32,957 bases of DNA, taken from Bacteroidales bacterium. GTDB lineage: Bacteria; Bacteroidota; Bacteroidia; Bacteroidales; JAFGHD01. Both the position numbers and the translations under genes were made by a program. Location of the stretch: assembly GCA_016939365.1 (NCBI GenBank), contig JAFGHD010000049.1, positions 1-32,957 of the forward strand, written 5' to 3'. Numbering within the stretch: the stretch's first letter is position 1; the number at the start of each line of letters is the position of its first letter. Below, piece by piece: positions 2,035 through 29,007 of this stretch. The notes below the pieces were generated by a model that was given only the letters and a program-made list of their open reading frames with translations, had not been told where the DNA came from and ran no database searches.

Positions 2035-2062
2035 GACTCCTCCCTGTGCGGCAGGGTCTCAG
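2031..2062. terminator. Bidirectional hairpin spanning two convergent stop codons
   Basis: CTGAGA (2031-2036) pairs with TCTCAG (2057-2062), and inside it CCCTG (2042-2046) pairs with CAGGG (2052-2056), with a five-base bulge on one side. The stop codons of the plus aminotransferase (2032-2034) and the minus beta-helix gene (2059-2061) both lie inside the stem. There is no T-run on either side, so termination strength is uncertain. Confidence 0.4.
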
Positions 2063-2730
2063 TCCGGCACCTGCGATCCCAGACCGCCGTTAGGCCTCCA
2101 TACCTCTATCTTGTCACCATTGTTCACCTCGCCGTCCATGGTGAAATCACCGGGATAGTATCCCGATAATCCGGACTGCACCACCCAGACATCATTCTTA
2201 TCACCGTTATTGATCTCCCCGCTTGCATCACCGTCTCCTCCAACCAGACCCCAGACACCGGAGTCAAGATATGAATAACCTAAAGTTCCGCCATATACCT
2301 GTCCCGGACCGGTCGAGAAATCGTAGGAATATATCCCGCCTGCTGAAGTCAGTGCATTGGCGGACATAATGCCCAAATGGTTCCGGTGCCATAAGACCGC
2401 GAAAAGGGAATGATTGATACCGGCATTGACGACAGGATGGCTGGTTCCGTCTGTCCCTGTGATGGTACCATCCTTGTGGAGAAATGCAGCCGTCCGGGCG
2501 ATGATCGAAGCTGGCGTGGCCAGGGAGGCAGAAGGGGCATCCCGCAACTCTACCAAAATCCAGTCGACGATATCCGGATCCGGAATGGATGCCACCGCCT
2601 CCGTTCCATTGTAAAGCCATGGGCTATTATTGTAAGGCTGTGACAAGGGCAGCATACCCTGCATGTTCAGGTTCGTGCGCATGTAAGGGCCGATGTATGG
2701 CCCTTCCAGATATGCCTTCAGATTCAGCGT
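2059..2730 (-). other. Shared C-terminal module, copy A
   Basis: Residues 587-809 of the beta-helix protein. The order of motifs is LEGPY, QPYNNSPWLYNGTEAV, VDWILVELRD, WHRNHLGIMSA, GVWGLVGGDGD, then two EF-hand-like loops (DGDASGEINNGD and DFTMDGEVNNGD) each followed by (N/E)-[DV]-W-type residues, and the terminal RPNGGLGSQVPD. It is the only copy with an extra Asp after the terminal Pro. The paralogy is plain at protein level but not at DNA level. Confidence 0.85.
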
Positions 2731-4488
2731 GATATCATTGGAGGCAGGGATCACGGTCACGGTAGTTTCATCCGTGACGCTCACGCCATAACTGTCCCTT
2801 ACGGTAAGCGTATATACTGTTGTCTGCATCGGCCCGCAAACAGGATTGGGAATATTGGGATTGCTCAATCCCGTTGCAGGCGACCATGTGTAGGAATAAG
2901 GAGAAATGCCCCATTCCACCGATCCGTTAAGGATCGTGTTGGTGCCGAAGACCAGAACGACGTCTGGACCCGCATCCGGTACAGGCATCATATAGGTGAA
3001 ATCGCTGTTCTGATACCTGAGCTTTGCCTGGATAGTCCCTGAGGAAATGGTGTTCGGTATGCCGATACTCGGCCAGTTCATGTTGATATCCCAGAATTCT
3101 GGCTTCTGGGAACAATAGTAGGACTCATCTGGCAGGTTGTTGGTCCCCGACGGAATAATGTTGCCCTTCAGGTTGTTGCCGTACTCGAAATGATTGGAAC
3201 CGCTGAGACTGTATTGCCCCATCAGGAAACCCGTGTTGGTGATCTCATTGCCCACATAGTTCTGGTAGCTTGTGGTCAATGTGCCTGAGGTAATGATAAT
3301 GCCATACAGTTCAGCACGGTTCCTGAAGAAAGAATTGTAGGGGCCGCTGGGGCCCCATGCATGATCGGTGATGATATTCTGCACAATGTTGCCCTCAAAC
3401 AGGTTGCAAAAAGAGAAATGCCCGTGCAGCGATATATCGCCGCTGTAATTGTTCGGGTATTCCGTCCGGTACACATCCAATGAGTAATTGTATCCAAAGA
3501 CATTGCCGTTGGCCCCCACTTTGGTCATCATGGCATGCCGGAGATGCTTGAAGATGTTGTTCTCCACAAGGCACAGCCCGCAATGATTGTTGAGGGTGAC
3601 GCCGTAGCCATGGTTTGAGGAGCCGTCGTAGGCAAAGGCGTCGTGGAAATAGCAACCTGAGATTTCGATATGGGTGCTCCAGCGGACCACGATATGGCTG
3701 CCTACGCTTTTGTTACTCTCCACTCCCCTGATCCAGCAATCCTTTGCAAAGCTGATCAGAACATTGTTCGGTCCTGAGGTGGGAACGTCATCGATCCGTT
3801 CTATATAAAGGGATTCTATTCCAGCATGAGTTTTTGGGGTGAAAGGGCCGGCAGTGGGATTCAGAGAGGCCTCAAAGGTGATGCGGAGGGGATCCTCCAG
3901 AAAAAGAGTATCACCCGAAATGGAAACCACCCCCACGATCTGGCCGACTGCATATTCCGCCCATGTCGCCGGATTGGTATCCCAGCTTCCGTTATCTTCC
4001 CTGATCTGGATATAATCCCCGGCAGAAAAAAGACCCGGGTCGGTGACACGTATCCATCCGGAATCTTTGACATATCCTGTGATCAATGGGGTATAGGAAG
4101 AAGGTCCCGTTCCGGAGACATTGACACAAGCCATATTCAAACCGCCCAGGTTGAATCTGAGCCTGGACTGCAGTCCGGCCACTCCCCTGAGGATGACGCT
4201 GTCCGGCAAAACAAGGCCTGTATTGAGAAGATAATTTCCGGCAGGGAAAAAAACCACACCCTGATTGCCACCCAGTGCGGCAATCGCCGCTGCCACTGCC
4301 GGATAATCATTGGTGACACCGTTACCGGTGGCTCCGAAGTCCATGACATTGACCACAAGTGCAGGGTCGGGGAAACTCCCCGTGAATCCGGCGGTGCTCC
4401 AGTTCACCCTCCGGTCCAGGGGGATCACCTGCGCCCCGGCCCATAAAGTGATTGCCAGCAGCGCGTAAACAAGTAAAATTCTTTTCAT
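2059..4488 (-). CDS. Secreted pectate-lyase-fold (right-handed beta-helix) protein with dockerin-like C-terminal module
   Basis: An 809-residue secreted protein. A signal peptide (1-20, ending WAGAQ) is followed by a segment typical of the pectate lyase 3/GH28-like beta-helix family (VMDFGATGNGVTND, about 48-61, then FFPAGNYLL near 80-88). A long run of beta-helix rungs rich in N, G and aromatic residues extends to about 500. Next is a PKD/SprB-like Ig domain (about 505-582, with YSYTWSPATG), then the ~220-residue module shared with three other proteins here (587-809) with two calcium loops and the tail GGLGSQVPD. The start is the MKR at 4488; the frame runs 10 codons further up but those precede the signal peptide. 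Likely a polysaccharide lyase, hydrolase or adhesin; no catalytic residues can be assigned. It has no type A T9SS tail. Confidence 0.82.
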   Translation of the reverse strand: MKRILLVYALLAITLWAGAQVIPLDRRVNWSTAGFTGSFPDPALVVNVMDFGATGNGVTNDYPAVAAAIAALGGNQGVVFFPAGNYLLNTGLVLPDSVILRGVAGLQSRLRFNLGGLNMACVNVSGTGPSSYTPLITGYVKDSGWIRVTDPGLFSAGDYIQIREDNGSWDTNPATWAEYAVGQIVGVVSISGDTLFLEDPLRITFEASLNPTAGPFTPKTHAGIESLYIERIDDVPTSGPNNVLISFAKDCWIRGVESNKSVGSHIVVRWSTHIEISGCYFHDAFAYDGSSNHGYGVTLNNHCGLCLVENNIFKHLRHAMMTKVGANGNVFGYNYSLDVYRTEYPNNYSGDISLHGHFSFCNLFEGNIVQNIITDHAWGPSGPYNSFFRNRAELYGIIITSGTLTTSYQNYVGNEITNTGFLMGQYSLSGSNHFEYGNNLKGNIIPSGTNNLPDESYYCSQKPEFWDINMNWPSIGIPNTISSGTIQAKLRYQNSDFTYMMPVPDAGPDVVLVFGTNTILNGSVEWGISPYSYTWSPATGLSNPNIPNPVCGPMQTTVYTLTVRDSYGVSVTDETTVTVIPASNDITLNLKAYLEGPYIGPYMRTNLNMQGMLPLSQPYNNSPWLYNGTEAVASIPDPDIVDWILVELRDAPSASLATPASIIARTAAFLHKDGTITGTDGTSHPVVNAGINHSLFAVLWHRNHLGIMSANALTSAGGIYSYDFSTGPGQVYGGTLGYSYLDSGVWGLVGGDGDASGEINNGDKNDVWVVQSGLSGYYPGDFTMDGEVNNGDKIEVWRPNGGLGSQVPD

Positions 4489-4499
4489 CTTTTTTTCTT

Positions 4500-4507
4500 C
4501 AAATGTA
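4500..4507 (-). promoter_or_regulatory. Possible -7 promoter element for the minus beta-helix gene
   Basis: CAAATGTA on the plus strand reads TACATTTG on the minus strand, a full TAnnTTTG match 12 bases upstream of the ATG at 4488. The predicted leader would be extremely short and no good -33 element is present, so the assignment is tentative. Confidence 0.35.
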
Positions 4508-4566
4508 AAAAATATCAATTATATTTACAGGGTGTAACAGACGTATCTGAAGAAATTTTATTTTAT

Positions 4567-9718: not shown

Positions 9719-9735
9719 GCCAACCCCACCTTCTT

Positions 9736-13989: not shown

Positions 13990-14005
13990 TTTGACGGATC
14001 ATTAT

Positions 14006-14055: not shown

Positions 14056-14076
14056 AACAATTTTGATCTGAGAAAA

Positions 14077-15054: not shown

Positions 15055-15065
15055 ACATATCGATC

Positions 15066-16034
15066 ATGGAAAAGGCATTGATACTGATCAATAAGATGTC
15101 TTCCGATCCGGCCGAAGATGAGCTGGACGTCCTTGAGCAGGCACGGGTCGTGGAAGAGGCACTTTTGGAGAACGGATATCAGGTTCACCGGGAATTCCTC
15201 GATCTCGATCTGCTGACCGCCCGGACAGCGATCATGTCATTCCATCCCGACCTAATCTTCAACCTGGTGGAAAGCCTTGACGGCAAAGGTGAGCTGGTGT
15301 TCCTACCCACCGCTCTGCTGGAGAGCCTGGACATCCCCTATACAGGCTGCCAGCTTGACAGCATGTACCTTACCTCCAATAAGGTGCTTGCCAAAAAGAA
15401 ACTCATACAGAAAGGACTCCCTACAGCAGACTGGTACACTTCCGCACAAGCCTCAATGATCCCCCCTGATAAACGATACATCATCAAACCGGTCTGGGAA
15501 GATGCTTCCGTTGATATCGACGACCATGTGGTTTTTACCGGTTCTGATCCCGGCCTGAAGGAATACTTCATCAGAAATCCCCTTAAAAAAGCCTTCATCG
15601 AAGAATACATTGAGGGAAGGGAATTCAACATCTCCATCCTCGGCGGAGAAAATGGCCCGGAAGTGCTGCCTCCTGCTGAGATCAGGTTCATGAATTTCCC
15701 TGAGGGGAAACCCAGGATTGTTGGATACAGATCGAAGTGGAAGGAGGATTCCTTTGAATACCGGAACACCATCCGGAGTTTTGACTTCCCTGTTGAGGAC
15801 AGGGACCTTCTTGCGCGGCTGAAAGCCTTATGCCTCTCCTGCTGGAAGGAATTTAACCTCAGGGGATATGCACGTGTTGATTTCCGGGTGGACGGCAAGG
15901 GACATCCCTTCATCCTCGAGATCAATGCCAACCCGTGTATCTCACCCGATGCCGGTTTTTATGCAGCCTGCCAAACGGCAGGGTATCCTTTCTCTGATGT
16001 GATCCTCAGAATTATTTATGATGCCTTTCATTGA
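15066..16034 (+). CDS. ATP-grasp ligase, D-Ala-D-Ala-ligase-like (second of two)
   Basis: A 322-residue ATP-grasp enzyme related to but clearly distinct from its upstream neighbour. The N-terminal domain contains FNLVESLDGKGE (65-76), matching the Ddl-type FNxxxGxxGE region. ATP lysine K141 lies in IIKPVWEDASVDID, a more Ddl-like loop than in the first enzyme. EEYIEGREFNISILG (179-193) precedes the metal site, with Asp272 in RVDFR, Glu285 and Asn287 in LEINANPCIS. The gene follows the first ligase by 11 bases and the acetyltransferase starts 10 bases (or fewer, with overlap) after it, so co-expression is near certain. Two successive ligases imply two amide bonds or two alternative substrates. 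Not a housekeeping ddl by context, since no cell-wall genes are nearby. Confidence 0.87.
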   Translation: MEKALILINKMSSDPAEDELDVLEQARVVEEALLENGYQVHREFLDLDLLTARTAIMSFHPDLIFNLVESLDGKGELVFLPTALLESLDIPYTGCQLDSMYLTSNKVLAKKKLIQKGLPTADWYTSAQASMIPPDKRYIIKPVWEDASVDIDDHVVFTGSDPGLKEYFIRNPLKKAFIEEYIEGREFNISILGGENGPEVLPPAEIRFMNFPEGKPRIVGYRSKWKEDSFEYRNTIRSFDFPVEDRDLLARLKALCLSCWKEFNLRGYARVDFRVDGKGHPFILEINANPCISPDAGFYAACQTAGYPFSDVILRIIYDAFH

Positions 16035-16044
16035 TCACCCGGGT

Positions 16045-16545
16045 ATGAGTATCCGCGCTGAAGTCAGGACTCCCGATCCTGAAGCCGTCCGCAAAATAGT
16101 GAAATCCACAGGTTTTTTCAGGGATGATGAGATCGCCGTTGCGGTTGAGTTGGTGGAAGAAACACTGTTGAAAGGAAAGGATTCCGGATATGAATTCCTG
16201 TTCATTGATCACAAGGATAATCCGGTTGCCTACAGTTGTTTTGGACTGATACCCTGCTCGCTTCTGAGCTGGGATCTGTACTGGATCGTCACCCATCATC
16301 AATACCGGGGAAAGGGATTGGGATCAATGCTCCTGATGGAAACCGAAAGGATTGTCCAGGCGCGGGGAGGTAAAGCCGTATATGCTGAAACCTCATCCAA
16401 GGAACAATACCTGCCCACCCGGATGTTTTATGAGAAGAACGGTTATACCATCAAAGCCCGCTTCGAGGACTTTTATGATCTGGGTGATGATAAAATTGTT
16501 TATATGAAACTCACGGGGAGCGCTGAAGTCTCCCCGCGAGTTTAA
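16045..16545 (+). CDS. GNAT family N-acetyltransferase
   Basis: A 166-residue GNAT acetyltransferase. The acetyl-CoA pyrophosphate-binding motif A is YRGKGLGS (87-94) after the central strand LYWIVTHH; the last conserved helix/strand is RMFYEKNGYTIKARFEDFYD (126-145), typical of amine acetyltransferases. The start at 16045 opens with MSIRAEVRTP, the usual first GNAT strand; ATGs at 16018 and 16021 are in frame and would overlap the ligase gene, adding 8-9 residues, so translational coupling is possible. Last gene of the operon, where it probably acetylates an amino group of the intermediate or product, in the manner of AblB acting on beta-lysine. A hairpin at 16510-16540 lies within its last codons. 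Confidence 0.85.
   Translation: MSIRAEVRTPDPEAVRKIVKSTGFFRDDEIAVAVELVEETLLKGKDSGYEFLFIDHKDNPVAYSCFGLIPCSLLSWDLYWIVTHHQYRGKGLGSMLLMETERIVQARGGKAVYAETSSKEQYLPTRMFYEKNGYTIKARFEDFYDLGDDKIVYMKLTGSAEVSPRV
16510..16543. terminator. Hairpin inside the last codons of the acetyltransferase gene
   Basis: The arms 16510-16520 (CTCACGGGGAG) and 16530-16540 (CTCCCCGCGAG) pair at 10 of 11 positions around a 9-base loop, followed by TTT and the stop codon. The minus-strand C25 peptidase gene ends 13 bases further on, so the structure may terminate transcription from both sides of this tight convergent junction. Confidence 0.5.
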
Positions 16546-16552
16546 GGTAATA

Positions 16553-17218
16553 TCAGGGAACCTGGCAGCCGTTACCGCTGTTGGGGCCCCATACTTCCAC
16601 CTTATCGCCGTTGTTCACCTGTCCATCAAGATTAAAATCGCCGTACAGGTAGCCTGATTGTCCGGATTGCTGCACCCAGACATCTATTTTATCGCCGTTG
16701 CCGATCTGACCGTCGCAGTCACCGTCACCTCCCATCATACCCCACAATCCGGGTTCTACCTGCTTGTGACCCAAGGAGCCGCCATAGGCCTGCCCCTCTC
16801 CGGTGGAAAAATCGTAAGTGAAAACGCCACCGTTAAGGATCAGCGGGTTGTTGGAAAGGACTCCCAGATGGTTGCGATGCCAGACCACTGCAAAGAGGTT
16901 CTGGCTGAAAGATGCTGCGAACATGAGGGGGCTGACGGCATCTGTTCCTGTAATGGAACCGTCAGAAAGGAGCAATCCTGCCTGAATGGCGATCTGTGTG
17001 CTCTGGTTGGCATTGGCTGCCGCATCGGCATCCCTGAGCTCAACAAGCACCCAATCCACCACATCGGGAGCCGGCGTTCCCTGTATGGTTTCCGTACCGG
17101 TGTAATACCAGGGGGCACCGCTGTAAGGCTGAACCATTGGAAAGTCCGGCATCCCGCACAGTATCGTATTCATTTGCCCGTTGTTGCAAGGCCCTTCGAG
17201 GATCACCTTCAGTGACAC
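16553..17218 (-). other. Shared C-terminal module, copy B
   Basis: Residues 1471-1691 of the C25 peptidase. Motifs are LEGP, QPYSGAPWYYTGTE, VDWVLVELRDA, WHRNHLGVLS, GLWGMMGGDGD, loops DGDCDGQIGNGD and DFNLDGQVNNGD, and the terminal GPNSGNGCQVP. The penultimate region carries Cys where copies A and D have Ser. Confidence 0.85.
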
Positions 17219-20200
17219 ATCATAACCCTGGCCAATGGTCAGGGTGGCAGGTACCACCATCAGAGGCGCGTCAGGATCATTGCTGTTGATGAGGATATCT
17301 GCGGTGTATGTGCCCAGGGGCAGAGTGCCTGCATCAAATCCCACGGTAATGTCATGGGTGACACCTGGGCCAACCGAATTGCTGACCATGTTGCCACCAT
17401 CGAGGGTAAGCCATGTGTAAGGAGGATTGTAGGTGTAATCCACCACCAGGTAAGGCTTGTTGGTCTCGTTCCATCCCTCGAATTTGATATAGTAGGAACT
17501 GGAGTTATCCCTGGAATCCATGCCCATACCGAACCAACCCTGAGCCAGGGCCGTTTCAAGATCGGCATTGGCCTGGGCATTCAGGGTATAGTTATGCCAA
17601 CCGGTCGCAAAGCTGCTGGATTCGTTCCGGTATACATACGCAAGGCTCTGGCTGTTGTGCGCCTGGATCCAGTCCTTCAGCTCGGAAGCGGTTGCCGTAA
17701 CCGGATCCATGGGCAATGATGTAGCACTCCAGTATGGATAATAGGTTTCATAGACATACCCATAAAACTCAATGCTGTTGATGGTCGATCCGACGGGAAT
17801 GGAACTCACATCAAACTTGAACCATCCGTCCTCACTGTTCCATCCGATCACCAGGCTGTTCTGCGTCTTGGAGGAGCCGTTGGTCGTGCCGCTCCAGTAT
17901 GGTTGGGCGGAAGGATAGACCGTGGCCACGTTGCGGGATTCAGCATTGTACACCACCTGGGCGGTGAAGTCCAGTGTCATGTCCCCGTTGTTGGCGATGG
18001 ACAGCATATCCTGGCAGGTGCCGGCAGGAGGGAGCATTTTATCAAAGGAGGCCGGAGCCGGCAGAATATCCGGACCCAGTCTGCCACAGCCAGTCACAGC
18101 CACATAGGACAGCGGTGTGTCGGGATCATTGCTGGCAATCTCCACATTGTCAGAAAAGCAAAGCGGTTGAGTGGGCTCGAAGGTCACATAAATATCCAGG
18201 CTGTTTCCCGGACCGACAAGGAAGGTGATGACATTCTTGCCTTGCTCCTTGAATAGACTGCCTTCGGTAACATCGCTGACACTATAGCCCTGTGGAGCGG
18301 TAATGGTACCGGTCAGGTTATCGCTTCCATTGTTGCTGATGGTAAAAGTCTCGGTTGAGTTTGTGCCGATGACCACATCCCCGAAGTCGATGAATACGGG
18401 AGATACGGCAATGTCCGGCTCGATGGCGGCCAGCGGCGGGAAGACGATGTAGTCGACCCATCCGCAGTCAGAACCACCTGTCATGGAAACGTCTTTGTCA
18501 TAAACCCATCTGAAGGTATGCAGACCGGCGGGTACGAAGTAGGCCTCCCTGGCCCACCCCATCTCACCCGACCATTCCTCCTTGAGTGTCCCGTCAATAT
18601 AGAACTGAAGGAAGTCATAAGTTGCCTCAGAGGAGACCTTGCGGTAAAAGGAGATACTGTCCGAAGCCACCGTCTCGAGCACGATGAACAGTTCCGATGA
18701 CTGATAGTTTCCGGCAGGGCCAGATTTGGCACAATAGACCCCTTCCCAGGGAGCGGAGGAAGTTATTTCCCATGGGGCATTCCCTCCGAATTGCCAGGGG
18801 TAGCTTGCAAAACCGCCCGACTCCCAGTCTTCGATCACCAGGCCTACGGTCAGCATGAATGTCTCAATGAAACCATATGCTCCTGCAACGACATCGATAG
18901 TCAGGTCCACGACGGTACCAACCGGAGTTGCCGGATCGACAGTGATATTGAAAACTGCGGGTGCCGTGCTGCCTGCAGGGATGGCTCCCGGCACTGCAGT
19001 GCCCGAATTCACCGTTATATACGGGCTGGATGTGGTCAGACCGGCAGTGGCGTTGGGAGAAAGGCTGTGTCCGTTGTTGGCTACCGTAATGGTGACACCG
19101 GCGGTCTCACCCGGATCCAGCAGACCGTTGCCGTTGCCACCCGCAGCATCATCCACCTGTGGATAGCCGCTGGTCCCAAGGAGGGGTGCATGCAAGGCAA
19201 ATGAGAGATTGGAGCTCCAGGTCTCATTGCCATCGGTCACTTCGATCGTGAAAAGGGCAATATGCTCGTCGGGGGCGTTTGATGCCACGCTCAGACCGAA
19301 AGCACCGGCCTGAGAAGAAGTAGCCTGTGGCGGTATGTCCGGCCATGACTGAACCGGGTCGGTAATGGTAATATAAGGATCCATACTCATCAGGGTGGCT
19401 GTCAGGTTTGTTCCGGTAGTGCTGCCCATGTTTTTCAGGGTGACATCCAGCAGGATGCTCTCGCTGTAATCGGCCAGGCCATTGGCGTTTCCGGCTGCAT
19501 CATCAATCTGGAAGTTTTCCAGGAGTACATAAGGGCCTGTTGGTGAGGCTACAACCACCGTTCCGAAGAAAGGCTCACCGTTCTGGCGGGTGATCACGAC
19601 ATCAGCCGTACCGGGCACTGTAATCGGATCCAGCTGGACATCAGCCACACCCGTGGCATCTGCAACGGCTACACCATGCAGTACACCATCTTTTGAAATG
19701 GCTACATATGAATATGGATCGGTGTTCACCACAAAGGAGGTTGAGGCCAGGGGCATCAGGGGATCATAGGAGGCTGAAATAGACGGAGGCACCGAAAAAT
19801 AAATCATCACAGAAGGGTCTCCCATCAGGTGGTATATTTCCCAGTAGTAGGTTTCCCTGCTGGATCCGGACTGTGTTACGGCCAGGTTGCCCGCAGATAC
19901 CATCTGGCCCTGCGTGACATACCATTCGGCCAGGGGCTCGCCATGGTCATGAAAAGTTCTGTCGTAGGCACCCAGATGGCTCGGATTGTAGGTTGGATTG
20001 GCTGAGATGGCCTCAAACCCTACACCCCACCAGAAATCCTCATCCCAGTAAGTGCTGTTGGAGCCACCAATGTACCCCAGAGCGCCCTTGTCCGCCGCGC
20101 GGAGGATCTCCTCTCCAAAACAGGTTGTCTGAAACTCCAATGAAGAACAGCAGTTGCCCACCATCAAAGGGTATTTGTGCGCGTTCGTCAATGCGGAGAT

Positions 20201-21628
20201 ATGGCTGATCGTGAAGCTGGGATCGGCCCAGCCATTGGTGCTGCAATGGGCCGTATAGTTGGCATATGCAACACCATCGCTGACATTCTGCCTGATCAGC
20301 TGGGAATAGTTGCCCCCGGAGGGTTCAGGCTGCAGATAGGTGTGCGAGTATAGCCCGTGCGCCGCATTAAAATAATAGGTAGTCCCGTAGTTGATCTGGC
20401 CGTTGCCCCACGTTTGCGCATGGGAAGCATCCGCACCGGACACCATCACCACCTCACCCAGGAAAGCCGGATCAGGCATCAGGTATTGCTCGTATTCCAG
20501 GGTCTTGTCGATCTGAGGCTGCAACTGGGTCAGGTTGGTAGCAGAGAATCTGCCGTAAAAACACTCGGGGTAGAGGTCATTGGTATATTCGCAATAATAA
20601 AGATCGGTCACATGCGACCCTGCCGTACCATTGAAGGTGGGTATCTGTGCCACATCTCCCACGAATAGAACAAAACTGTGGGGATGGTATCCTGAAGGGG
20701 GACTGAGGAACAGATTCTTCAGATAGGTCTTGATCGAAGTGGTCGTGGTGCCTACATTTGGATCATTCGTGTAAGCTTCAATGATCCGGAAACCCTTCTT
20801 CGTCTTCCACTGGATAAAGGGTTGCAGCGCCGCCTGAAACATCGGATCGGAAACGATCACATAGGTAACAGGCTCATCCATAATCAGCGAATCCGTCGTC
20901 ACCGGCTGGTAATTGGCTACAAAACTGTATATTCCTTCAAACCAGGGCGAGAAATACTTCTTCCGTGCCGCTTCAGTCGCCTGAATATCCGCCCCGGTGT
21001 ACTCCACCATGGCCTCCAGGTGGGTAATGATCCTCAATACTTTTTGAACAGGATTGTACTGAAACGGTGAGACTTCCAGACGGGCCAGCCTGAAGCCTCT
21101 CATCGAGCCCAGTATGTTGACGGTCACCGGATCCTGTCCCAGGAATTTGTCCATACCGTAAGTTTCCCAGTTCACAACGAAATCCAGGTCGTACGGGTCC
21201 TCAATATTCTTGGAGACGGGCGGCTGCGCAGGGATGATCAGGTTCTGAATGTCCGCCGAGGACAGATCCAATTCCGAGTAAGACACCGAAAGGATCCTTA
21301 CCGTCGCCTCTGCGCCGGCAGGTATCCCGATCAACCTCCTCAGCACGGGAATTTTCGGATCGCCCTCAACCGTTGAGTACCCATATCCGGCTATAGTTAC
21401 CTGAGTGAAGACACCTTCACGCGTGTTCACATCCACATAGCTGAATTCCCCTACAGAGCTGGTGAAACGCAATAGCGAGTAGTCACTTTGAAGGATGGAG
21501 AACTCTGTACTTCCTCCACCCGGAACCTTCACATCGCCTGCCATAAGCCTCACACCTGAAAGTAAAACCAACATGCCGGTGAGACATATCATGGCAAAGC
21601 AGAAGAATTTGTTACACAGGGTTTTCAT
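16553..21628 (-). CDS. Gingipain-type C25 cysteine peptidase, giant modular secreted protein
   Basis: A 1691-residue secreted peptidase. The signal peptide ends near 30 (RLMAGD). A C25 propeptide-like region (about 40-240, with GDPKIPVLRRLIGIP) is followed by the catalytic domain (about 250-610): YVIVSDPMF, FVLFVGDVAQIP, ANYTAHCS with the probable catalytic His461, and VGNCCSSLEF with the nucleophile at Cys493 or Cys494. Then come an Ig-like domain (about 615-700), two CARDB-like domains each opening with DDAAGNxNGL (about 708-930), a jelly-roll domain with FYRKVSSEATYDFLQFYIDG (about 930-1065), an ASH-like domain (about 1070-1180), a DNRLRE-like domain (about 1225-1400), a BACON-like domain, and the shared C-terminal module (1471-1691). 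The start at 21628 (MKTL) is chosen over 21670 by signal-peptide position. It probably acts at the cell surface or outside. No type A T9SS tail is seen. Confidence 0.88.
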   Translation of the reverse strand: MKTLCNKFFCFAMICLTGMLVLLSGVRLMAGDVKVPGGGSTEFSILQSDYSLLRFTSSVGEFSYVDVNTREGVFTQVTIAGYGYSTVEGDPKIPVLRRLIGIPAGAEATVRILSVSYSELDLSSADIQNLIIPAQPPVSKNIEDPYDLDFVVNWETYGMDKFLGQDPVTVNILGSMRGFRLARLEVSPFQYNPVQKVLRIITHLEAMVEYTGADIQATEAARKKYFSPWFEGIYSFVANYQPVTTDSLIMDEPVTYVIVSDPMFQAALQPFIQWKTKKGFRIIEAYTNDPNVGTTTTSIKTYLKNLFLSPPSGYHPHSFVLFVGDVAQIPTFNGTAGSHVTDLYYCEYTNDLYPECFYGRFSATNLTQLQPQIDKTLEYEQYLMPDPAFLGEVVMVSGADASHAQTWGNGQINYGTTYYFNAAHGLYSHTYLQPEPSGGNYSQLIRQNVSDGVAYANYTAHCSTNGWADPSFTISHISALTNAHKYPLMVGNCCSSLEFQTTCFGEEILRAADKGALGYIGGSNSTYWDEDFWWGVGFEAISANPTYNPSHLGAYDRTFHDHGEPLAEWYVTQGQMVSAGNLAVTQSGSSRETYYWEIYHLMGDPSVMIYFSVPPSISASYDPLMPLASTSFVVNTDPYSYVAISKDGVLHGVAVADATGVADVQLDPITVPGTADVVITRQNGEPFFGTVVVASPTGPYVLLENFQIDDAAGNANGLADYSESILLDVTLKNMGSTTGTNLTATLMSMDPYITITDPVQSWPDIPPQATSSQAGAFGLSVASNAPDEHIALFTIEVTDGNETWSSNLSFALHAPLLGTSGYPQVDDAAGGNGNGLLDPGETAGVTITVANNGHSLSPNATAGLTTSSPYITVNSGTAVPGAIPAGSTAPAVFNITVDPATPVGTVVDLTIDVVAGAYGFIETFMLTVGLVIEDWESGGFASYPWQFGGNAPWEITSSAPWEGVYCAKSGPAGNYQSSELFIVLETVASDSISFYRKVSSEATYDFLQFYIDGTLKEEWSGEMGWAREAYFVPAGLHTFRWVYDKDVSMTGGSDCGWVDYIVFPPLAAIEPDIAVSPVFIDFGDVVIGTNSTETFTISNNGSDNLTGTITAPQGYSVSDVTEGSLFKEQGKNVITFLVGPGNSLDIYVTFEPTQPLCFSDNVEIASNDPDTPLSYVAVTGCGRLGPDILPAPASFDKMLPPAGTCQDMLSIANNGDMTLDFTAQVVYNAESRNVATVYPSAQPYWSGTTNGSSKTQNSLVIGWNSEDGWFKFDVSSIPVGSTINSIEFYGYVYETYYPYWSATSLPMDPVTATASELKDWIQAHNSQSLAYVYRNESSSFATGWHNYTLNAQANADLETALAQGWFGMGMDSRDNSSSYYIKFEGWNETNKPYLVVDYTYNPPYTWLTLDGGNMVSNSVGPGVTHDITVGFDAGTLPLGTYTADILINSNDPDAPLMVVPATLTIGQGYDVSLKVILEGPCNNGQMNTILCGMPDFPMVQPYSGAPWYYTGTETIQGTPAPDVVDWVLVELRDADAAANANQSTQIAIQAGLLLSDGSITGTDAVSPLMFAASFSQNLFAVVWHRNHLGVLSNNPLILNGGVFTYDFSTGEGQAYGGSLGHKQVEPGLWGMMGGDGDCDGQIGNGDKIDVWVQQSGQSGYLYGDFNLDGQVNNGDKVEVWGPNSGNGCQVP

Positions 21629-21735
21629 AAAATGGGTTTTTGAATTATTTTCTCGATATGTTCCCACCAATCATACGGGGTTAAATCATCACACCCCTGG
21701 GCCGATTCCCATCAGCCGGTCGTTTGAACAGGCAT

Positions 21736-21771
21736 CCGGATCCTCACCATAGCGGGCAAGGATCCGGTTTT
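21736..21771. terminator. Possible terminator hairpin downstream of the carboxypeptidase gene
   Basis: CCGGATCC (21736-21743) and GGATCCGG (21760-21767) form a perfect 8-base stem with a 16-base loop. On the plus strand it is followed by TTTT, but the gene it would serve is on the minus strand, where no T-run follows. It may still slow or end transcription, or protect the mRNA end. Confidence 0.35.
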
Positions 21772-21803
21772 AAAATTTCAAGGTACATAGAGGCTTTCGA
21801 ACA

Positions 21804-22469
21804 TCAGGGTACCTGGCATCCCCTGCCGGCATTCGGACCCCAGATATCGATCTTATCACCGTTATTCACCTGGCCGTTCATATCAAAATCGCCGTTCAGG
21901 TATCCCGACATTCCTGACTGTACCACCCAAACATCCATCTTGTCGCCGGTGGATATCTGTCTGTCGCCGTTACCATCTCCGCCGATCATCCCCCAGACAC
22001 CTGTTGCCAGTTCCTTGAGGCTATTGGTTCCGCCAAATGCCTTGCTTGAGTTGTCAGTGAAATCCCATAAATATACTCCGCCGGAAAGGGTTAAAGGCGC
22101 TCCCGACATGATCCCCAGATGGTTCCTGTGCCAGATCACGACATAAAGGTTGTCTGTGATGTCCAGGGCAAACGTCAGGGGGCTGGAACCGTCAAGGCTC
22201 ACAACATCGCCGAATTGCATCACGAAAGCCGCCTGCCTTGCGATAATGGAATCTGCAGTTGCGGTGGCGGCACTTCCTGTCGTTTCCCTAAGTTCCACCA
22301 GTACCCAGTCGATCACGTCACTGTTGGGTATGGCCGCCACACTTTCTGTACCATTATAATTCCATGGTGGGTTGTTGTAAGGCTGGCTGAGCGGGACATA
22401 TCCCAGGTTGTTGAGGTAGTTGGCCATGAACATGCCTGTAAAGGGTCCTTCGAGGTTGACTGTGATATC
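21804..22469 (-). other. Shared C-terminal module, copy C
   Basis: Residues 1222-1442 of the carboxypeptidase. Motifs are LEGPF, QPYNNPPWNYNGTESV, IDWVLVELRET, WHRNHLGIMS, GVWGMIGGDGN, loops DGNGDRQISTGD (Arg in place of the usual Gly at loop position 6) and DFDMNGQVNNGD, and terminal GPNAGRGCQVP. Like copy B it has Cys in the tail. Confidence 0.85.
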
Positions 22470-25400
22470 CAGGATGGCCACGCCGCCTAGTTCAAGGCTG
22501 ACAGGAATGATCACCTGAGGATTGACCGGGTCGTTGCTGGTCACGGTGATCTCTGCCTGGTAGAGGCCTGGAACCATTCCCGTTGAATTGGCATGGACCA
22601 CCATATCCAGTGTACCTCCTGCAGGAGGCACCACTCCGGTGGCATTGCTTGTGATACTCAGCCAGTTGGATCCTGACTGGTATGCGATCGAGGTGGAATA
22701 GGATAATGACCCGGTACCTGTATTGGTCACAGTGACGGTCTCATCCTGCCCTGAATTGGGAGGAAGTATATAGCTGATGCTGGAGGGAGAGATCCCGATG
22801 ACTGCAATACCGCTTTCCCCGCCAATCCAGAAATCATCGATGGCCATGTCACTGGTGTAATTGGTGCCGGTAATTCCACGGAACCTGATCTTTATGGTCT
22901 GCCCCAGGTAGGCATTCAGATCTACGGTTTTCTGGTACCAGGCATTTCCCTGGTTCCCCGAAATGGCAGGCATGATGTCATTGATCCAGGTGCTGTTGGT
23001 ATAGATATCGACATGAAGGCTGCCCATAGCTGTACCATACATATGATACCAGAACTTCATCTCTATGGAGGTCATTCCGGCCAGGTCGAACATAGGCGAT
23101 ATCAGGTTGGCCGTCTTGTTGGGATAATTGGGACTTGAAGATTCGGTGTACACGTAATAACCCGTTCCGGTGGTATGATCACCGGAGGGTCCGGTTCCGG
23201 AGGAGGGAGTGCCTCCCGCATCCACGGTCCAGTCGAAGTCATCACCCGTCGCATTGATCCAGGCATATGGCATTTGCCCGCCCTCCTCGAAGTCCTGCTC
23301 GTAAGGCAAGGCAAAACCGGATATCCCGGAACCCGTTACTGTGATGATCACATTTCCGCCGGTAGCATTATGGGTGATGACCACATCACCGTTGTAGCCC
23401 TGGATGGCCATCGGTGCAAAGGTGAGGTTGAATGTCTTTGACGATCCGGGATTGACGGAATATGAGAGTGTGTTGTCGGCAAGGTTCACAGTATAACACG
23501 CAGGTGTGGTGATGTTTCCGCTGAGAAGGGCACTGCCGGTGTTGGATATGATAAATGTCTTGGTAAGCTGGTCTCCCACGAAGACGCCGCCGTAATCCAG
23601 TGAAAGGGGTGAGACACTGATGGCTGGAGCCGGAGGAGCCAACGGCGGGAAGATGATATAGTCCACCCAGGCACAATCCGATCCGCCCACAGTATTCGCA
23701 TCCTTCATATACGTCCATGTAAAGGTATGATTGCCCGTGCCGACAGGGAAACTCACTTCACTCCAGGCAACAGTGCCGGCCCACTTATTCTGCAGGGCAC
23801 CGTCGATATAAAACTCAAGGAAATCATATCCGGCCTCCGAGGATACCTTCCTGGCAAAAGAAAGCTGGCCGGCGGCCAGGACATTGACGGTAAGGTACAT
23901 GGTGGTCGTGGCATTGTTACCGATCACACCCGATCTGGCGCAGTAGATACCTTCATACGGCGCTACATTGGTGATGGTCCAGTTGGCGCTGCCACTGAAC
24001 TGCCAGGGGAAGGCAGAGAAGTTGCCCGTCTCGAAATTCTCCACGATCAGCCCTACTGTGAAATTCAGGTTGAAACTCGCCGTGTAGGCACCGCTGTTGG
24101 CCGTGACATCCAGGTTGAAGCCTGCAACATGCCCGATCGGGGTGCCTGCATCCACCGAAAAGGTAAAGGTTCCCGTACCGGTCATTCCGGGCTGTATCGT
24201 GCCGAAATTCGCATTGCCGGTGATCATGGTGATATAGGATGAGAGCGTGCTCAACACTCCTGAGGTATTTGATGCGGGCTGATCGCCGTTATTCCTGAGT
24301 GTCACGATCAGGTTGGCTGTTTCTCCCGGATCAAGGCGACCGTTATTGTTGCCCATGGCATCGTCGATCTGGGTGTCGTAGACAACCAGGTAAGGTCCCG
24401 GTATAGGTTCAAATGCTTCAATGGCATCCAGGTCATATCCGGCGTCGGCGATCACTGCCGTTCCGTCGCCGTCGTCCAGTATCCTGATATACTGTGCTTC
24501 AATAAGGCTTCCGTTTGCAAGGTCGAATTCGGCTGTGCCGGTAGCCGTACCCAGGCTGATCCAGGGTCCGTCAATATCATTGGATGCAAAGCATGTGTAC
24601 CCCTCGGGGGAAACATCTCCCTCATGCACCTTGAAATCATTTCCGGGTGTATCCTGGATGGGATTCTGCATATCTACAACCACCCAGCCGTTTTTACCGA
24701 TCGAATAGTTTATGTCGTCAGGGGCCCCGGTTGCAGCAGGGGTGTAACCCTCATCCGAATGATTGTTATCCGGAATCTGGCTGCTGCTGATGCGGTAGCC
24801 GTAGTGACCCTGGAGCGGCTGCAGCTGGACATTGGCAATGGTATTGTTCATACTGGTCACCACCACGCCGTTCACCATCTGGGTCTGGTAGCCGTTGGCC
24901 ACCACCCTGAGGTTATAGGTTCCGGGATTCAGGAACTTATGATAATCGCCCACCACCGGATCGGAGAAAACGGGATAATTGCTCCCCACATAGATCAGTG
25001 CGGCTACCGGCAATCCGGTTGTGGCATCAGTAACCGTTCCGCTCACACCATAACCGCCATATTCGATCATCTTGATCATGGAGGGCTTGTTGTAATTGTA
25101 GTACATCATGATCTGGCTCGTTGGCGGCTGCTTGCTGTAAGAAATCTCCATGGTGAAGCTGACCGTGCCCATGATGCCGTAATTGCAGTCCTTGGTGCTG
25201 CCGTTGATGGGGTACATTCCGCTGTAACCCTGATGGTAAGGCAGGCTGGAATAGCCGGAGTTATTTGAATATATCCCGGCGATAGTATGAATATGAGGCT
25301 GATCGGGCGCCACATCGGGCCGGTAGCTCCAGGGGTAGGAGATCTCCTCTGTGCCGCTGTGATAGGTGATATGAATCACTGCCTGGTGATCGAGCATCCA

Positions 25401-26132
25401 GCTTCTGAGGGCCCTGGATTCCACCTGTGAAAAGGGGCCGGGACTGCCACCCCAGGCGTCCCACATGTACCCGGCATCCCTGTTCAGGTCGACACCGTTG
25501 TTGTTGTAGCGGGACATATTCACACGCCCGTCAGGATTGACCATCAGGTAAAGCCATACCTCACGGTTGTTGATCAGGTTGGTGATGGTGGGATCTGAAC
25601 CATAGGCCAGACAGAGATCCCTGGCAAAACGGATCACATTCTCAGAAGCCCCGATCTCATCACCATGAATGCCTCCATCAAAAAGTACTTCAGCCTCATT
25701 CTCATCGGTCGACACGTTATCGCTGATCTTCAGTGCCGCCAGTTGCCGGCCTCCGACCGAGGTACCATACAGATGCTTGGAACAGATATTGGGGAAATGG
25801 GTTGCAAGACTGTCGGCCAGGGCTATGATCTGGTCGTAGGTGTGATAAGCATCTTCGCCGAGCCAGAAATCCTGATAATGGACATTCAGGTCGGGGATGG
25901 TTATCTCGTAAGGAATACCTGCGGCCTTCAGCTTGTCAAGCTCCGCAGGAACGAGGTACAATACGGCCTTGTCGTCGTAGTAATCTCCATTAAACCTGAG
26001 CTCGAGCAGTGCCGAAACCTGAGTTTCATTCTGAGGGAACGCCCGAATCTCCATCTCTCCCTTACGCCAGCCTTCAGCCAGTGTAACTGATGTAATCAGA
26101 AGGAAGAGTACCAGGGTAAAAAGGTTTTTCAT
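21804..26132 (-). CDS. M14-type zinc carboxypeptidase, giant modular secreted protein
   Basis: A 1442-residue secreted peptidase with signal peptide to about residue 19. The M14 catalytic domain (about 85-360) shows the zinc ligands His156 and Glu159 (GGIHGDEIGASE), NPDGR at 199-203, substrate-binding GVDLNRD (Asn217, Arg218), the third ligand His258 (TYHSG) and catalytic Glu329 (FTMEIS). A transthyretin-like carboxypeptidase regulatory domain follows (VSGTVTDATTGLPV, about 361-440), then a discoidin-like region (about 455-575), a CARDB-like domain (DDAMGNNNGRLDPGE), a jelly-roll domain (FARKVSSEAGYDFLEFYIDG, about 758-777), an ASH-like domain, a MAM-like domain (about 940-1103, ending MAIDDFWIG), a BACON-like domain and the shared module (1222-1442). 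It should cleave C-terminal residues of peptides outside the cell, downstream of an endopeptidase such as the neighbouring C25 enzyme. Start at 26132 is clear. Confidence 0.9.
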   Translation of the reverse strand: MKNLFTLVLFLLITSVTLAEGWRKGEMEIRAFPQNETQVSALLELRFNGDYYDDKAVLYLVPAELDKLKAAGIPYEITIPDLNVHYQDFWLGEDAYHTYDQIIALADSLATHFPNICSKHLYGTSVGGRQLAALKISDNVSTDENEAEVLFDGGIHGDEIGASENVIRFARDLCLAYGSDPTITNLINNREVWLYLMVNPDGRVNMSRYNNNGVDLNRDAGYMWDAWGGSPGPFSQVESRALRSWMLDHQAVIHITYHSGTEEISYPWSYRPDVAPDQPHIHTIAGIYSNNSGYSSLPYHQGYSGMYPINGSTKDCNYGIMGTVSFTMEISYSKQPPTSQIMMYYNYNKPSMIKMIEYGGYGVSGTVTDATTGLPVAALIYVGSNYPVFSDPVVGDYHKFLNPGTYNLRVVANGYQTQMVNGVVVTSMNNTIANVQLQPLQGHYGYRISSSQIPDNNHSDEGYTPAATGAPDDINYSIGKNGWVVVDMQNPIQDTPGNDFKVHEGDVSPEGYTCFASNDIDGPWISLGTATGTAEFDLANGSLIEAQYIRILDDGDGTAVIADAGYDLDAIEAFEPIPGPYLVVYDTQIDDAMGNNNGRLDPGETANLIVTLRNNGDQPASNTSGVLSTLSSYITMITGNANFGTIQPGMTGTGTFTFSVDAGTPIGHVAGFNLDVTANSGAYTASFNLNFTVGLIVENFETGNFSAFPWQFSGSANWTITNVAPYEGIYCARSGVIGNNATTTMYLTVNVLAAGQLSFARKVSSEAGYDFLEFYIDGALQNKWAGTVAWSEVSFPVGTGNHTFTWTYMKDANTVGGSDCAWVDYIIFPPLAPPAPAISVSPLSLDYGGVFVGDQLTKTFIISNTGSALLSGNITTPACYTVNLADNTLSYSVNPGSSKTFNLTFAPMAIQGYNGDVVITHNATGGNVIITVTGSGISGFALPYEQDFEEGGQMPYAWINATGDDFDWTVDAGGTPSSGTGPSGDHTTGTGYYVYTESSSPNYPNKTANLISPMFDLAGMTSIEMKFWYHMYGTAMGSLHVDIYTNSTWINDIMPAISGNQGNAWYQKTVDLNAYLGQTIKIRFRGITGTNYTSDMAIDDFWIGGESGIAVIGISPSSISYILPPNSGQDETVTVTNTGTGSLSYSTSIAYQSGSNWLSITSNATGVVPPAGGTLDMVVHANSTGMVPGLYQAEITVTSNDPVNPQVIIPVSLELGGVAILDITVNLEGPFTGMFMANYLNNLGYVPLSQPYNNPPWNYNGTESVAAIPNSDVIDWVLVELRETTGSAATATADSIIARQAAFVMQFGDVVSLDGSSPLTFALDITDNLYVVIWHRNHLGIMSGAPLTLSGGVYLWDFTDNSSKAFGGTNSLKELATGVWGMIGGDGNGDRQISTGDKMDVWVVQSGMSGYLNGDFDMNGQVNNGDKIDIWGPNAGRGCQVP

Positions 26133-26174
26133 AATGATAACTGTGATTAAATGTTAGGATGAATGTTCATGTGT

Positions 26175-26182
26175 CAAAGTTA
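26175..26182 (-). promoter_or_regulatory. Possible -7 promoter element of the carboxypeptidase gene
   Basis: CAAAGTTA on the plus strand reads TAACTTTG on the minus strand, matching TAnnTTTG, 42 bases upstream of the ATG at 26132. The -33 element at the expected distance is not convincing. Confidence 0.42.
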
Positions 26183-26300
26183 AATAAATAATATACAAAA
26201 AAAACGGATTGGAAAATTTCCCAAGACGGATAGACATGACCATCTGGCCAGAGGTTGGCTGCATCCCGGTTATTTAAAGTGCTTCCAATTACCGGGAAAC

Positions 26301-26330
26301 AAAACCCCCGTGCGGGATTGCGCACGGGGG
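26301..26330 (-). terminator. Rho-independent terminator after the beta-propeller gene
   Basis: CCCCCGTGCG (26305-26314) and CGCACGGGGG (26321-26330) pair perfectly over 10 bases with a 6-base loop. On the minus strand the stem is followed by TTTTG and a further TTT. It lies 38 bases after the end of the propeller gene, so the carboxypeptidase gene probably has its own transcript. Confidence 0.85.
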
Positions 26331-26367
26331 TCCAGGCCGGATCAACGGCCATTGAGGTTCATTTCGG

Positions 26368-27030
26368 TCAGGGGACTTGCGAACCGTTTCCGCTGTTGGG
26401 TGCCCACACATCCACCTTGTCAGGGTTGTTCACCTGTCCGTCCATGTTGAAGTCACCTGCCAGATAGCCTGCAGCACCGGCCTGCATCACCCAGACATCG
26501 ATTTTGTCCGTATTGCCCACCTGTCCGTCGCCATTGCCGTCACCGCCGAACATGCCCCAGACGCCCGGAACCAGTTCCGTATGTCCCAGGGCGCCTCCAT
26601 AGACCTGCCCGGCGCCGGTGGTGTAATCCCAGGAATAGACATTGCCGGCGGCAGCCAGCGGACTTGCCGACATGACCGCCAGATGATTTCTGTGATAAAC
26701 GACAACGAAGAGATTGTTGGCTACAGTTACATTGAAAGTGGGATTGGAGGTACCGTCAATCGCTGTGACCGATCCATCGTTGAACACAAAGACAGCCTGT
26801 TGTGCGATCATGGTTGCAGAGGTGGCCGAGGCAGCATCCACGGCATCCCTCAACTCGATAAGCAGCCAGTCCACAATATTGACATCCGGAATGGCGGCTA
26901 CAGCTTCCGTACCGGTGTAGTTCCAGGGTGCAGCGTTGAAAGGCTGGGCCAGTGGCAGGAATCCCAGGCTATTCAGCGAAGTGCCCATCGTGGTTCCGCT
27001 GTATGGCCCCTCCAGGAATACCTTCAGATC
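26368..27030 (-). other. Shared C-terminal module, copy D
   Basis: Residues 660-879 of the propeller protein. Motifs are LEGPYSG, QPFNAAPWNYTGTEAV, VDWLLIELRDA, YHRNHLAVMSA (Tyr for Trp), GVWGMFGGDGN, loops DGNGDGQVGNTD and DFNMDGQVNNPD, and terminal APNSGNGSQVP. Its loops are the closest to canonical dockerin calcium loops. Confidence 0.85.
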
Positions 27031-29007
27031 CACCTCCAGCGCTGCGGCACCACCACTCAGATCGATCAGGTTGACATACCCGTAGTTACCCGAAATTATG
27101 GTGCCCAACAGGTTGTTATTACGGTCAATATGATGAAAACCGCTGCTGTTGGTGGTGAGCAGCGTCAGGTCGGGCAGCTCATAAGCACCCCGGTTACCCG
27201 TGATGACATCGTAAATTCCTACCAGGGTACCATCGGGCAGGTATTCGTGTACTCCCTGAGGCGTACTGAAACATCCCGCGAGGATGTTATTGTTGGCGGC
27301 AATGGCCAGCTGTTCGGGGAAGTTCACATTGCTGGTGATGATGCCGACAAAATTCCCATTGGCGTCGAACTGCTTGATATGATCAGGGTTTTCAATGTCA
27401 GCTACGAGGTAGTCGTTGGTGGCCGGCCTGTACAGGATATCGAAGGGATCGGTCTGACCGGCCGCAATGAACTGGCCGATGTAATTGCCGTCCGTATCGA
27501 ATTCAACCACCGAATTGTCATTGGTACCGCCACTGACCGTAACGAGGAGGTGCCCGTCAGGTTTCAGGCAGATGCCCCGGATGTTATCCATGATGGCCGG
27601 ATTCTGACCGCCGATGGGCGCGAAGGTACCCAGGAAGTTTCCGACGAGGTCGAATTCCTGGATCACATCCAGCACCTGGTCGGAGATCAGGATGCTCTGG
27701 CCGTCGTGGCTGAGGATGGCTTCAACCGGGGTGCTGAAGAAACCGCCATTGGGAATGAACTCTGCGTTGAGCAAGACTCCTGTGGAAGGATCAAACGCTG
27801 AAACCCTGTCCCCAGAACGGTCGGGGCTGAGCAGTACCATATTGCCCATTATAATATTGGTCACCGTGGTCATCTTGCAATCGTTGGCTGTGTTTTCGTC
27901 CCCGGGCATGTCCGTACAAACGTCAACCTGGTATGTCCCTGCGGCAGAGAGGTCCACCATTGCTGCAAAGGTATAGCTGACCGATCCGAGAGAAGGTACC
28001 GGTCCCGGAACCGTTTCATAGACAGGTGAACCCAGATCCAGCATGTAATAAACGGGAACGTTGCTCTGGACATTGGTACCATAATTGAACACCGTCACTG
28101 TGACCTGCTCCATACCGAGATTGAGTCCCGATACCGGGGAGGTGATGGCGGTGATACCCACATCATTGGCCGGTTGTGATCCTGAAGTCCCGTCTATGAG
28201 GAAAACGAAATCCTGCGGGCCGATGTCGGTCACCGGCGCCCACCCGGTTGTGGTGTATTGCAGGGCATTGCCGGTGCCGACGGAACCCAGCACGGTGACC
28301 GGAGGCGTCCATGGCCCGGTGTAGCTGCCGCTGCCGCCCATCTGATACTCCAGCCAGTATGTCCCGGCACTCAGCGTCAGACCCGGTGTGGCAGCCACAA
28401 TCTCATAAATCTTACGTGCAGTATTGGTGAGATCCGTATCCAGCACGCGGTAACAATTGGGAAAGTTCGCAGCGGAAAACAGGTTGGTGGTGAGATTACC
28501 CCAGACGACCGTGCCGCCGGCATTGGGAGGCCCATCATAGATCTGTACCCTGATGTCATTGATCGTTGCCGTCCCTGCATTGGTCTGATATCCCAGGAAG
28601 GTGATGGCGTTTATCGTCCAGGTGCCGGTAACAGTGAAATCATCTGCAACGGAGTTGCCCGCCGATATCTGGCATCCATATCCGTAAGTGCCCATTCCCA
28701 GTGCGGTCTGCAATGCGCTTGCATCGGCACCGCCGGAACCACCTCCCGGATGAGTGACATAGGGTCCGTTATCCCAGAGCAGTGCATCAGTCGGATAAAT
28801 CTGCGGAACAGTATTGAGCCCTTGGAACGGGACTCCCAGATAGGGTACACGCCCCGGTAATGCATCAAATGAAGTCTGCGGGATCGCTGCTTCCGAGATA
28901 CTCTGTCCTTCCGCCTCTTCTGCTCCTGATAAGCTCTGCGCCTGTGATGAAAAAGTGAACATCACAAGAGAGGCGAAAACAACCAATAATAGTCTTCTGC
29001 GTTTCAT
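26368..29007 (-). CDS. Secreted beta-propeller (NHL/SMP-30-like) surface protein with shared C-terminal module
   Basis: An 879-residue secreted protein with signal peptide to about residue 24 (FSSQAQ). The N-terminal region (about 90-275) is a beta-sandwich like those preceding choice-of-anchor domains, with VADDFTVTGTWTINAITFLGY. A CARDB-like domain follows (about 277-385, VTVTVFNYGTNVQSNVPV). Then comes a propeller of repeated NHL/SMP-30-type blades (about 387-655), for example VVEFDTDGNYIGQFIAAG, IKQFDANGNFVGIITS and VHEYLPDGTLVGIYD. The shared module closes the protein (660-879). No enzymatic motif is visible; binding to glycans, proteins or the cell surface is the likeliest role. Its start (MKRRRL) and terminator are both clear. 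It has no type A T9SS tail. Confidence 0.82.
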   Translation of the reverse strand: MKRRRLLLVVFASLVMFTFSSQAQSLSGAEEAEGQSISEAAIPQTSFDALPGRVPYLGVPFQGLNTVPQIYPTDALLWDNGPYVTHPGGGSGGADASALQTALGMGTYGYGCQISAGNSVADDFTVTGTWTINAITFLGYQTNAGTATINDIRVQIYDGPPNAGGTVVWGNLTTNLFSAANFPNCYRVLDTDLTNTARKIYEIVAATPGLTLSAGTYWLEYQMGGSGSYTGPWTPPVTVLGSVGTGNALQYTTTGWAPVTDIGPQDFVFLIDGTSGSQPANDVGITAITSPVSGLNLGMEQVTVTVFNYGTNVQSNVPVYYMLDLGSPVYETVPGPVPSLGSVSYTFAAMVDLSAAGTYQVDVCTDMPGDENTANDCKMTTVTNIIMGNMVLLSPDRSGDRVSAFDPSTGVLLNAEFIPNGGFFSTPVEAILSHDGQSILISDQVLDVIQEFDLVGNFLGTFAPIGGQNPAIMDNIRGICLKPDGHLLVTVSGGTNDNSVVEFDTDGNYIGQFIAAGQTDPFDILYRPATNDYLVADIENPDHIKQFDANGNFVGIITSNVNFPEQLAIAANNNILAGCFSTPQGVHEYLPDGTLVGIYDVITGNRGAYELPDLTLLTTNSSGFHHIDRNNNLLGTIISGNYGYVNLIDLSGGAAALEVDLKVFLEGPYSGTTMGTSLNSLGFLPLAQPFNAAPWNYTGTEAVAAIPDVNIVDWLLIELRDAVDAASATSATMIAQQAVFVFNDGSVTAIDGTSNPTFNVTVANNLFVVVYHRNHLAVMSASPLAAAGNVYSWDYTTGAGQVYGGALGHTELVPGVWGMFGGDGNGDGQVGNTDKIDVWVMQAGAAGYLAGDFNMDGQVNNPDKVDVWAPNSGNGSQVP

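Follow-up and report, generated by a model that had tools for sequence, protein, structure and literature searches.

A dockerin-like C-terminal module on secreted peptidases and other proteins of a Bacteroidales bacterium: a candidate docking tail for cohesin-bearing surface proteins

In C. thermocellum, X-module–dockerin dyads (XDocs) have as their binding partners the type II cohesins on scaffoldins that provide the surface anchor (PMC5141474), and an assembly of dockerin-bearing enzymes with a cohesin scaffoldin that ends in a CTD has been predicted for Cloacimonadota (Ca. Stygibacter; PMC8542988). Among the CTDs of the type IX secretion system (T9SS), type B (TIGR04131) comes with a neighbouring gene for its PorP/SprF shuttle (PMC12618676). 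The locus described here resembles each of these in part. It lies in a window of 32,957 nucleotides—the whole stretch of DNA that was analysed, contig JAFGHD010000049.1 of a Bacteroidales bacterium (assembly GCA_016939365.1)—in which four proteins have a domain of about 230 residues in common, here called the module.

The module and its copies

The original prediction had reported four copies that align end to end, and these are indeed present at the places given: they are 52–55% identical to the first copy, with a mean column identity of 69% and 77 invariant columns; the motifs DW.L.ELR and HRNHL are strongly conserved. In the ATG-started proteins, the module comprises residues 585–808 (beta-helix protein), 1468–1691 (C25 peptidase), 1220–1442 (M14 peptidase) and 657–879 (protein encoded at 26368..29007). 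The features of the window are as follows.

2059..4518, minus strand: secreted protein with pectate-lyase/rhamnogalacturonase-like beta-helix (PF12708, E 1e-11), 809 aa from ATG, module at end
2242..2751, minus strand: module copy 1, X-like beta-sandwich part (by alignment; fold transferred from the homologous copy 3, which was modelled)
2062..2241, minus strand: module copy 1, dockerin-like part with two calcium loops, end QVPD (by alignment)
16553..21670, minus strand: C25 (gingipain-type) peptidase (PF01364, E 3e-53), module at end
16733..17242, minus strand: module copy 2, X-like beta-sandwich part (by alignment)
16556..16732, minus strand: module copy 2, dockerin-like part, end CQVP (by alignment)
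21804..26132, minus strand: M14 zinc carboxypeptidase (PF00246, E 8e-45), module at end
21984..22496, minus strand: module copy 3, X-like beta-sandwich part (modelled residues 1–171 of 230; AlphaFold pLDDT 97 for the whole, 96 alone)
21807..21983, minus strand: module copy 3, dockerin-like part (modelled residues 172–230 with helices 183–193 and 212–222; model and alignment)
26368..29007, minus strand: secreted protein, module at end; no Pfam family above cut-off (originally read as a propeller)
26548..27051, minus strand: module copy 4, X-like beta-sandwich part (by alignment)
26371..26547, minus strand: module copy 4, dockerin-like part, end SQVP (by alignment)

The domains upstream of the module, which had been described as unrelated, are not wholly so, for choice-of-anchor D/HYDIN Ig domains occur in both the C25 and the M14 protein. 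Two neighbouring proteins had been credited with type A T9SS tails, and these tails score below threshold: 17.9 bits with TIGR04183 (cut-off 23) for the beta-helix protein at 4625–7993 and 16.5 bits with PF18962 (cut-off 27) for the one at 11176–12348. Directly behind the gene of the former follow two others (8093–11160), one for a putative 541-aa lipoprotein and one for a putative outer-membrane protein of 474 aa. A further stretch, 12727–16545, contains in a row what by eye look like a radical-SAM aminomutase gene, two ATP-grasp ligase genes and a GNAT-type acetyltransferase gene; the combination of lysine 2,3-aminomutase and acetyltransferase presumably recalls N-epsilon-acetyl-beta-lysine synthesis.

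A profile built from the four window copies yields 64 matches in the 3.67-Mb source genome, with E-values down to 1e-126; two of these are fragments of one broken copy, which leaves 63 module copies. At the extreme C terminus, with 0–22 residues behind them and a conserved ..QVP end, are 55 of the 63, so that dozens of secreted proteins in this genome end with the module. By a crude hydrophobicity rule, nearly all module proteins with a complete start have a Sec-type signal peptide. The assertion that the module is always C-terminal is correct for the window; genome-wide, however, eight of the 63 copies (13%; loci L026, L038, L043, L050, L051, L061, L064 and L067) are internal and followed by FISUMP (Fib_succ_major) and/or PKD domains, several of them beginning directly after the signal peptide. 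Among 53 module proteins, the catalytic domains encountered frequently belong to peptidase families (C25 on seven, M14 on three, C10 and C1 on two each), and no glycoside hydrolase family occurs among the 25 commonest of the 52 families on these proteins, that is, the plant-cell-wall hydrolases typical of a cellulosome do not appear there. Pfam and NCBIfam contain no family that covers the module. Viral contigs contained no relative of either the module or two partner proteins (see below), and no match at E 0.001 came from viral structures.

A dockerin-like fold

The last 60 residues of the module are dockerin-like, consisting of two canonical 12-residue calcium loops with a helix behind each, as in dockerins (residues 183–193 and 212–222 of the AlphaFold model, pLDDT 98). 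The loops follow the pattern D-x-[ND]-x-[DN]-G-x-[IV]-N-x-x-D, more precisely D-G-N-x-D-G-Q-[IV]-N-N-x-D for loop 1 and D-F-N-[ML]-[DN]-G-Q-V-N-N-x-D for loop 2, and the Asp residues at positions 1 and 12 are present in 99–100% of 98 aligned copies. These F-hand loops (D174/N-D176/D-N178/D185 and D203/N-D205/D-N207/D214) have the acidic or Asn residues at positions 1, 3 and 5 and the Asp at position 12 that characterize dockerins. In a sequence profile search of the PDB, the sole matches were 1daq and 2mte, the dockerin of a cellulosomal enzyme, at a weak E of 0.3. With the Pfam family Dockerin_1 (PF00404), the window copies stay below the cut-off of 22.9 bits, one of the four reaching E 0.32; a module at locus L191 scores 21.1 bits, and an archaeal member (L103:7310-8368) passes the cut-off with 27.1 bits.

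For the 230-residue module as a whole, AlphaFold gives a model with a pLDDT of 97. In a comparison of this model with VIA-align, XDoc chains from cellulosome scaffoldins occupy each of the top eight rows (Z 9.3–10.4, the next row dropping to Z 5.4), and these matches extend over both parts of the module (residues 4–230, with 143–150 residues aligned); Foldseek also ranks XDoc chains first. The module is thus predicted to combine a beta-sandwich and a dockerin in the arrangement of an XDoc dyad. When modelled alone (pLDDT 96), the beta-sandwich finds only transthyretin/CnaB-like folds of a generic kind (Z at most about 5) and has no preference for X-modules. What the model supports, therefore, is the dockerin identity and the dyad arrangement, not descent from clostridial X-modules.

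Cohesins and the partner gene

The source genome contains 12 matches to the cohesin family PF00963, almost all of them concentrated on three contigs. A profile built from nine of these domains matches solved cohesins at E 2e-5, so by sequence the genome encodes bona fide cohesins. Several cohesins per protein occur on contigs C85 and C99, with four in locus L144, as is typical of scaffoldins. Some cohesin proteins on C77, C85 and C99 themselves end in the module; other cohesin proteins on C77 have T9SS-type tails with sub-threshold scores (TIGR04183 17.9 bits in one and 12.0 in another). Two ordinary dockerins above cut-off are located on neighbouring proteins, one of which (on C85) has a T9SS tail. 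Within the set of module-positive genomes, cohesins were also found in 13 of 14 further genomes and in 32 of 48 distant ones. The numbers in the source genome are unequal, with 63 modules facing about 12 cohesins. At one place on C77 (G000:C77:22685-31897, i.e. L186:2686-11898), four cohesin proteins, three with T9SS-type tails and one with the module, surround a protein with an ordinary dockerin, a cluster that is possibly a small scaffold locus.

In distant Bacteroidota, the module gene is typically followed by a gene of 360–470 aa, which mostly starts 0–80 nt later and encodes a signal peptide, an N-domain of about 150 residues, an Ig-like region and a T9SS tail. TIGR04183 matches 25 of 41 of these tails; type B accounts for one more and type C for another. 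This two-gene cassette is absent from the source bacterium's own family. The possibility that the downstream gene encodes a PorV/SprF-type shuttle was rejected, its product being read as T9SS cargo. Two profiles of the partner N-domain, A7 and A8, were derived from genes adjoining modules and searched over the same 394 Bacteroidota genomes as the module; an A8 match in L140 turned out to be a histidine kinase and was dropped. Of 42 genomes positive for A7 or A8, 36 also have the module (Fisher 8e-34), a figure inflated because the profiles were built from module loci. The fair figure is that for held-out genomes, i.e. with the profile sources excluded, where the module is present in 8 of 14 A7/A8-positive genomes versus 13 of 352 negative ones (P 7e-8). 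Moreover, when four apparently lone A7 loci were fetched, the gene directly upstream of each proved to contain a divergent module.

With the first sequence profiles, the partner domain was not recognized as a cohesin, and a moderate match appeared only with a larger cohesin set. In profile comparison, the probability is 56% between cohesin and A8 and 66% between A8 and A7, with unrelated controls below 1%, and the N-domain of locus L300 is matched by both profiles. A8 N-domains thus seem weakly to moderately cohesin-like at the level of sequence profiles, and A7 N-domains only through A8. In L191, an explicit cohesin protein with a T9SS tail (PF00963 E 4.5e-8; PF18962) precedes the module protein, whose own N-domain looks cohesin-like by eye.

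Docking, sorting and known systems

The original prediction had left two roles open for the module, namely that it replaces or extends the T9SS signal or that it docks the proteins, either on one another or on the cell surface. It was right that the four copies lack a type A T9SS tail: TIGR04183, TIGR04131 and NF033708 (E up to 1) as well as PF18962 find nothing on the module, and on sequence grounds it was assigned to none of the T9SS domain types A, B and C. The source genome has 125 PF18962 matches, and in 20 of its regions 18 T9SS-tail proteins share upstream parts with 21 module proteins (E < 1e-10). Among them, the C25 peptidase of the window has a T9SS-tailed paralogue in the same genome with 61% identity over 1079 residues, as has the M14 peptidase, with 60% over 706 residues; the two tails are therefore found on the same sorts of extracellular enzyme. 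By the coordinates of the matches, no protein of the source genome has both a type A tail and a module. The sorting role is partly right in effect, since the module stands where paralogues carry the T9SS tail and every module-positive Bacteroidota genome sampled has SprA, but the module is not a known sorting domain. The docking role is the favoured one, because the module is predicted to be dockerin-like and cohesins are encoded in the genome.

The dockerin signature, the dyad-like model, the cohesins, the cassette, the interchange with T9SS tails and the co-occurrence with SprA, all obtained by computation, are in our opinion best explained by an XDoc-like module for docking, by which enzymes lacking a CTD are fixed to cohesin-bearing proteins that T9SS brings to the surface, a reading to which we assign a probability of about 0.72. 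The module would be a dyad in which a beta-sandwich of about 170 residues packs against a dockerin that has two calcium loops and forms the C terminus. Through it, secreted enzymes and structural proteins without a T9SS tail of their own would bind cohesin or cohesin-like domains, which, sitting on T9SS-tail proteins, would be placed on the cell surface; binding and its location are what we infer from these data. The outcome would be a cellulosome-like but protease-rich surface assembly in a T9SS bacterium, which in many other Bacteroidota could be reduced to the two-gene cassette of an XDoc protein and then a cohesin-like-CTD protein, the T9SS-tail protein downstream of the module gene perhaps being the matching socket.

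How does this compare with the module being a further class of T9SS sorting signal besides A, B and C, with its own shuttle and a dockerin-like appearance due to ancestry or second use? Such a class would fit the predominantly C-terminal position, which also holds for 88 of 102 near and about 29 of 30 distant copies, the latter mostly ending in ..VP, and it would account for the replacement of T9SS tails in paralogues that never combine both. Type B signals, too, reach a considerable length (up to 235 aa) and have an adjoining partner gene (PMC12618676). SprA is encoded in 49 of 49 module-positive genomes versus 305 of all 394 Bacteroidota sampled (P 1.4e-6), but this statistic ignores phylogeny, and since SprA-negative genomes largely belong to a few clades, the co-occurrence is phylogenetically confounded. 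Furthermore, internal copies are at odds with strictly C-terminal sorting, profiles of known signals do not match and the partner is T9SS cargo rather than a PorV/PorP-like barrel. A link to T9SS appeared in Bacteroidota, but not in the Thermoplasmatota MAG JAFGML (G394), the only positive one among 293 of its phylum, which has ten modules, two cohesin domains and no SprA; subject to the caveat of mis-binning in a MAG, the module appears to be used there without T9SS, and its occurrence there together with cohesins also favours docking. In this MAG (loci L099 and L103), one module is on a C25 gingipain-type peptidase and another on a protein that is anchored in the membrane by its C terminus; the contig of the latter also includes an archaeal-pilin-like gene (PF07790 17.1 bits, below the cut-off of 25.2), and the modules were likely gained laterally from Bacteroidales. 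The original prediction had itself named three observations that would speak against sorting, and each has been made to some degree in the form of the resemblance to dockerins with their non-sorting role, the 13% of internal copies and this SprA-less archaeal MAG. Overall, we consider a stand-alone sorting signal unlikely. As a separate observation, module genes occur in tandem in a few genomes (L256 in G014:C12; L230), and L256 features module variants in which a calcium loop reads GQVKYSGSGNDR instead, a sub-family with a loop insertion.

Two other explanations appear still less probable. A ligand-binding (e.g. glycan-binding) beta-sandwich with a calcium-stabilized tail could hold proteins to an extracellular polymer without any cohesin, in line with the strong conservation of DW.L.ELR and HRNHL and with the resemblance of the isolated beta-sandwich to transthyretin/CnaB and some carbohydrate-binding folds; this is quite improbable, as it leaves the dockerin loops, the XDoc-type arrangement and the conserved cohesin-like-CTD partner gene unexplained. 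Alternatively, gene adjacency may just reflect a common operon for surface proteins, with the module docking elsewhere, e.g. on cohesins of other module proteins. Several cohesin proteins do end in the module, so chains of module proteins are possible, and in Bacteroidales MAGs module genes often adjoin other module genes and not the partner; yet what accompanies the module in many families, held-out genomes among them, is specifically the A7/A8 domain and not T9SS cargo of any kind, which makes a mere operon effect very improbable indeed.

Docking on cohesins by itself leaves the crossing of the outer membrane by the cargo unexplained. A tentative and at present rather doubtful extension is piggy-back type IX secretion, in which signal-less cargo would pass the SprA channel as a passenger of its cohesin-CTD partner: the cargo would fold in the periplasm, plug its X-dockerin tail into the partner's cohesin or cohesin-like domain and, after SprA passage, stay on the surface bound to the T9SS-CTD partner. 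T9SS substrates are predicted from C-terminal signals, and module-tailed proteins—63 in the source genome, with the module present in 49 of the 394 Bacteroidota genomes sampled—would therefore be overlooked or wrongly classified. Should the tail indeed dock on cohesins, modular assembly of the cellulosome type would extend to protease-rich anaerobic Bacteroidota and would have become a two-gene surface cassette throughout the phylum; should the partner take its cargo through SprA as well, this would be a new secretion route. As a pair of one module and one partner, the cassette can be directly expressed and tested.

Our search of the open-access literature on cohesin, dockerin and T9SS found nothing on the module or the cassette. 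The closest structural relative is the XDoc of CipA/ScaA and CipB (PDB 2b59, 3kcp, 4u3s, 5g5d, 5k39, 5m0y), which likewise has a C-terminal beta-sandwich packed on a two-loop dockerin; identity is only 15–16%, however, the beta-sandwich of the module is much larger (about 170 versus about 95 residues), and the module is found on enzymes, mostly peptidases, of Gram-negative T9SS hosts instead of on one scaffoldin. With Ca. Stygibacter, our system shares secreted enzymes, a C25 peptidase among them, that have a dockerin at the C terminus, as well as a scaffoldin-like cohesin protein with a surface-attachment CTD, but the dockerins there are plain ones that serve one giant cohesin/CBM scaffoldin, and neither an XDoc-like module nor a two-gene cassette is reported (PMC8542988). 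The T9SS type A CTD (TIGR04183/PF18962) takes the same C-terminal position on paralogues but is an Ig-like fold of about 100 residues with PorV as its shuttle, in contrast to the 230-residue sandwich plus dockerin, which has no sequence match to it. Finally, the type B CTD is also a long C-terminal domain with a partner encoded next door; it differs in sequence, and whereas its partner is an outer-membrane barrel, that of the module is itself a secreted T9SS cargo.
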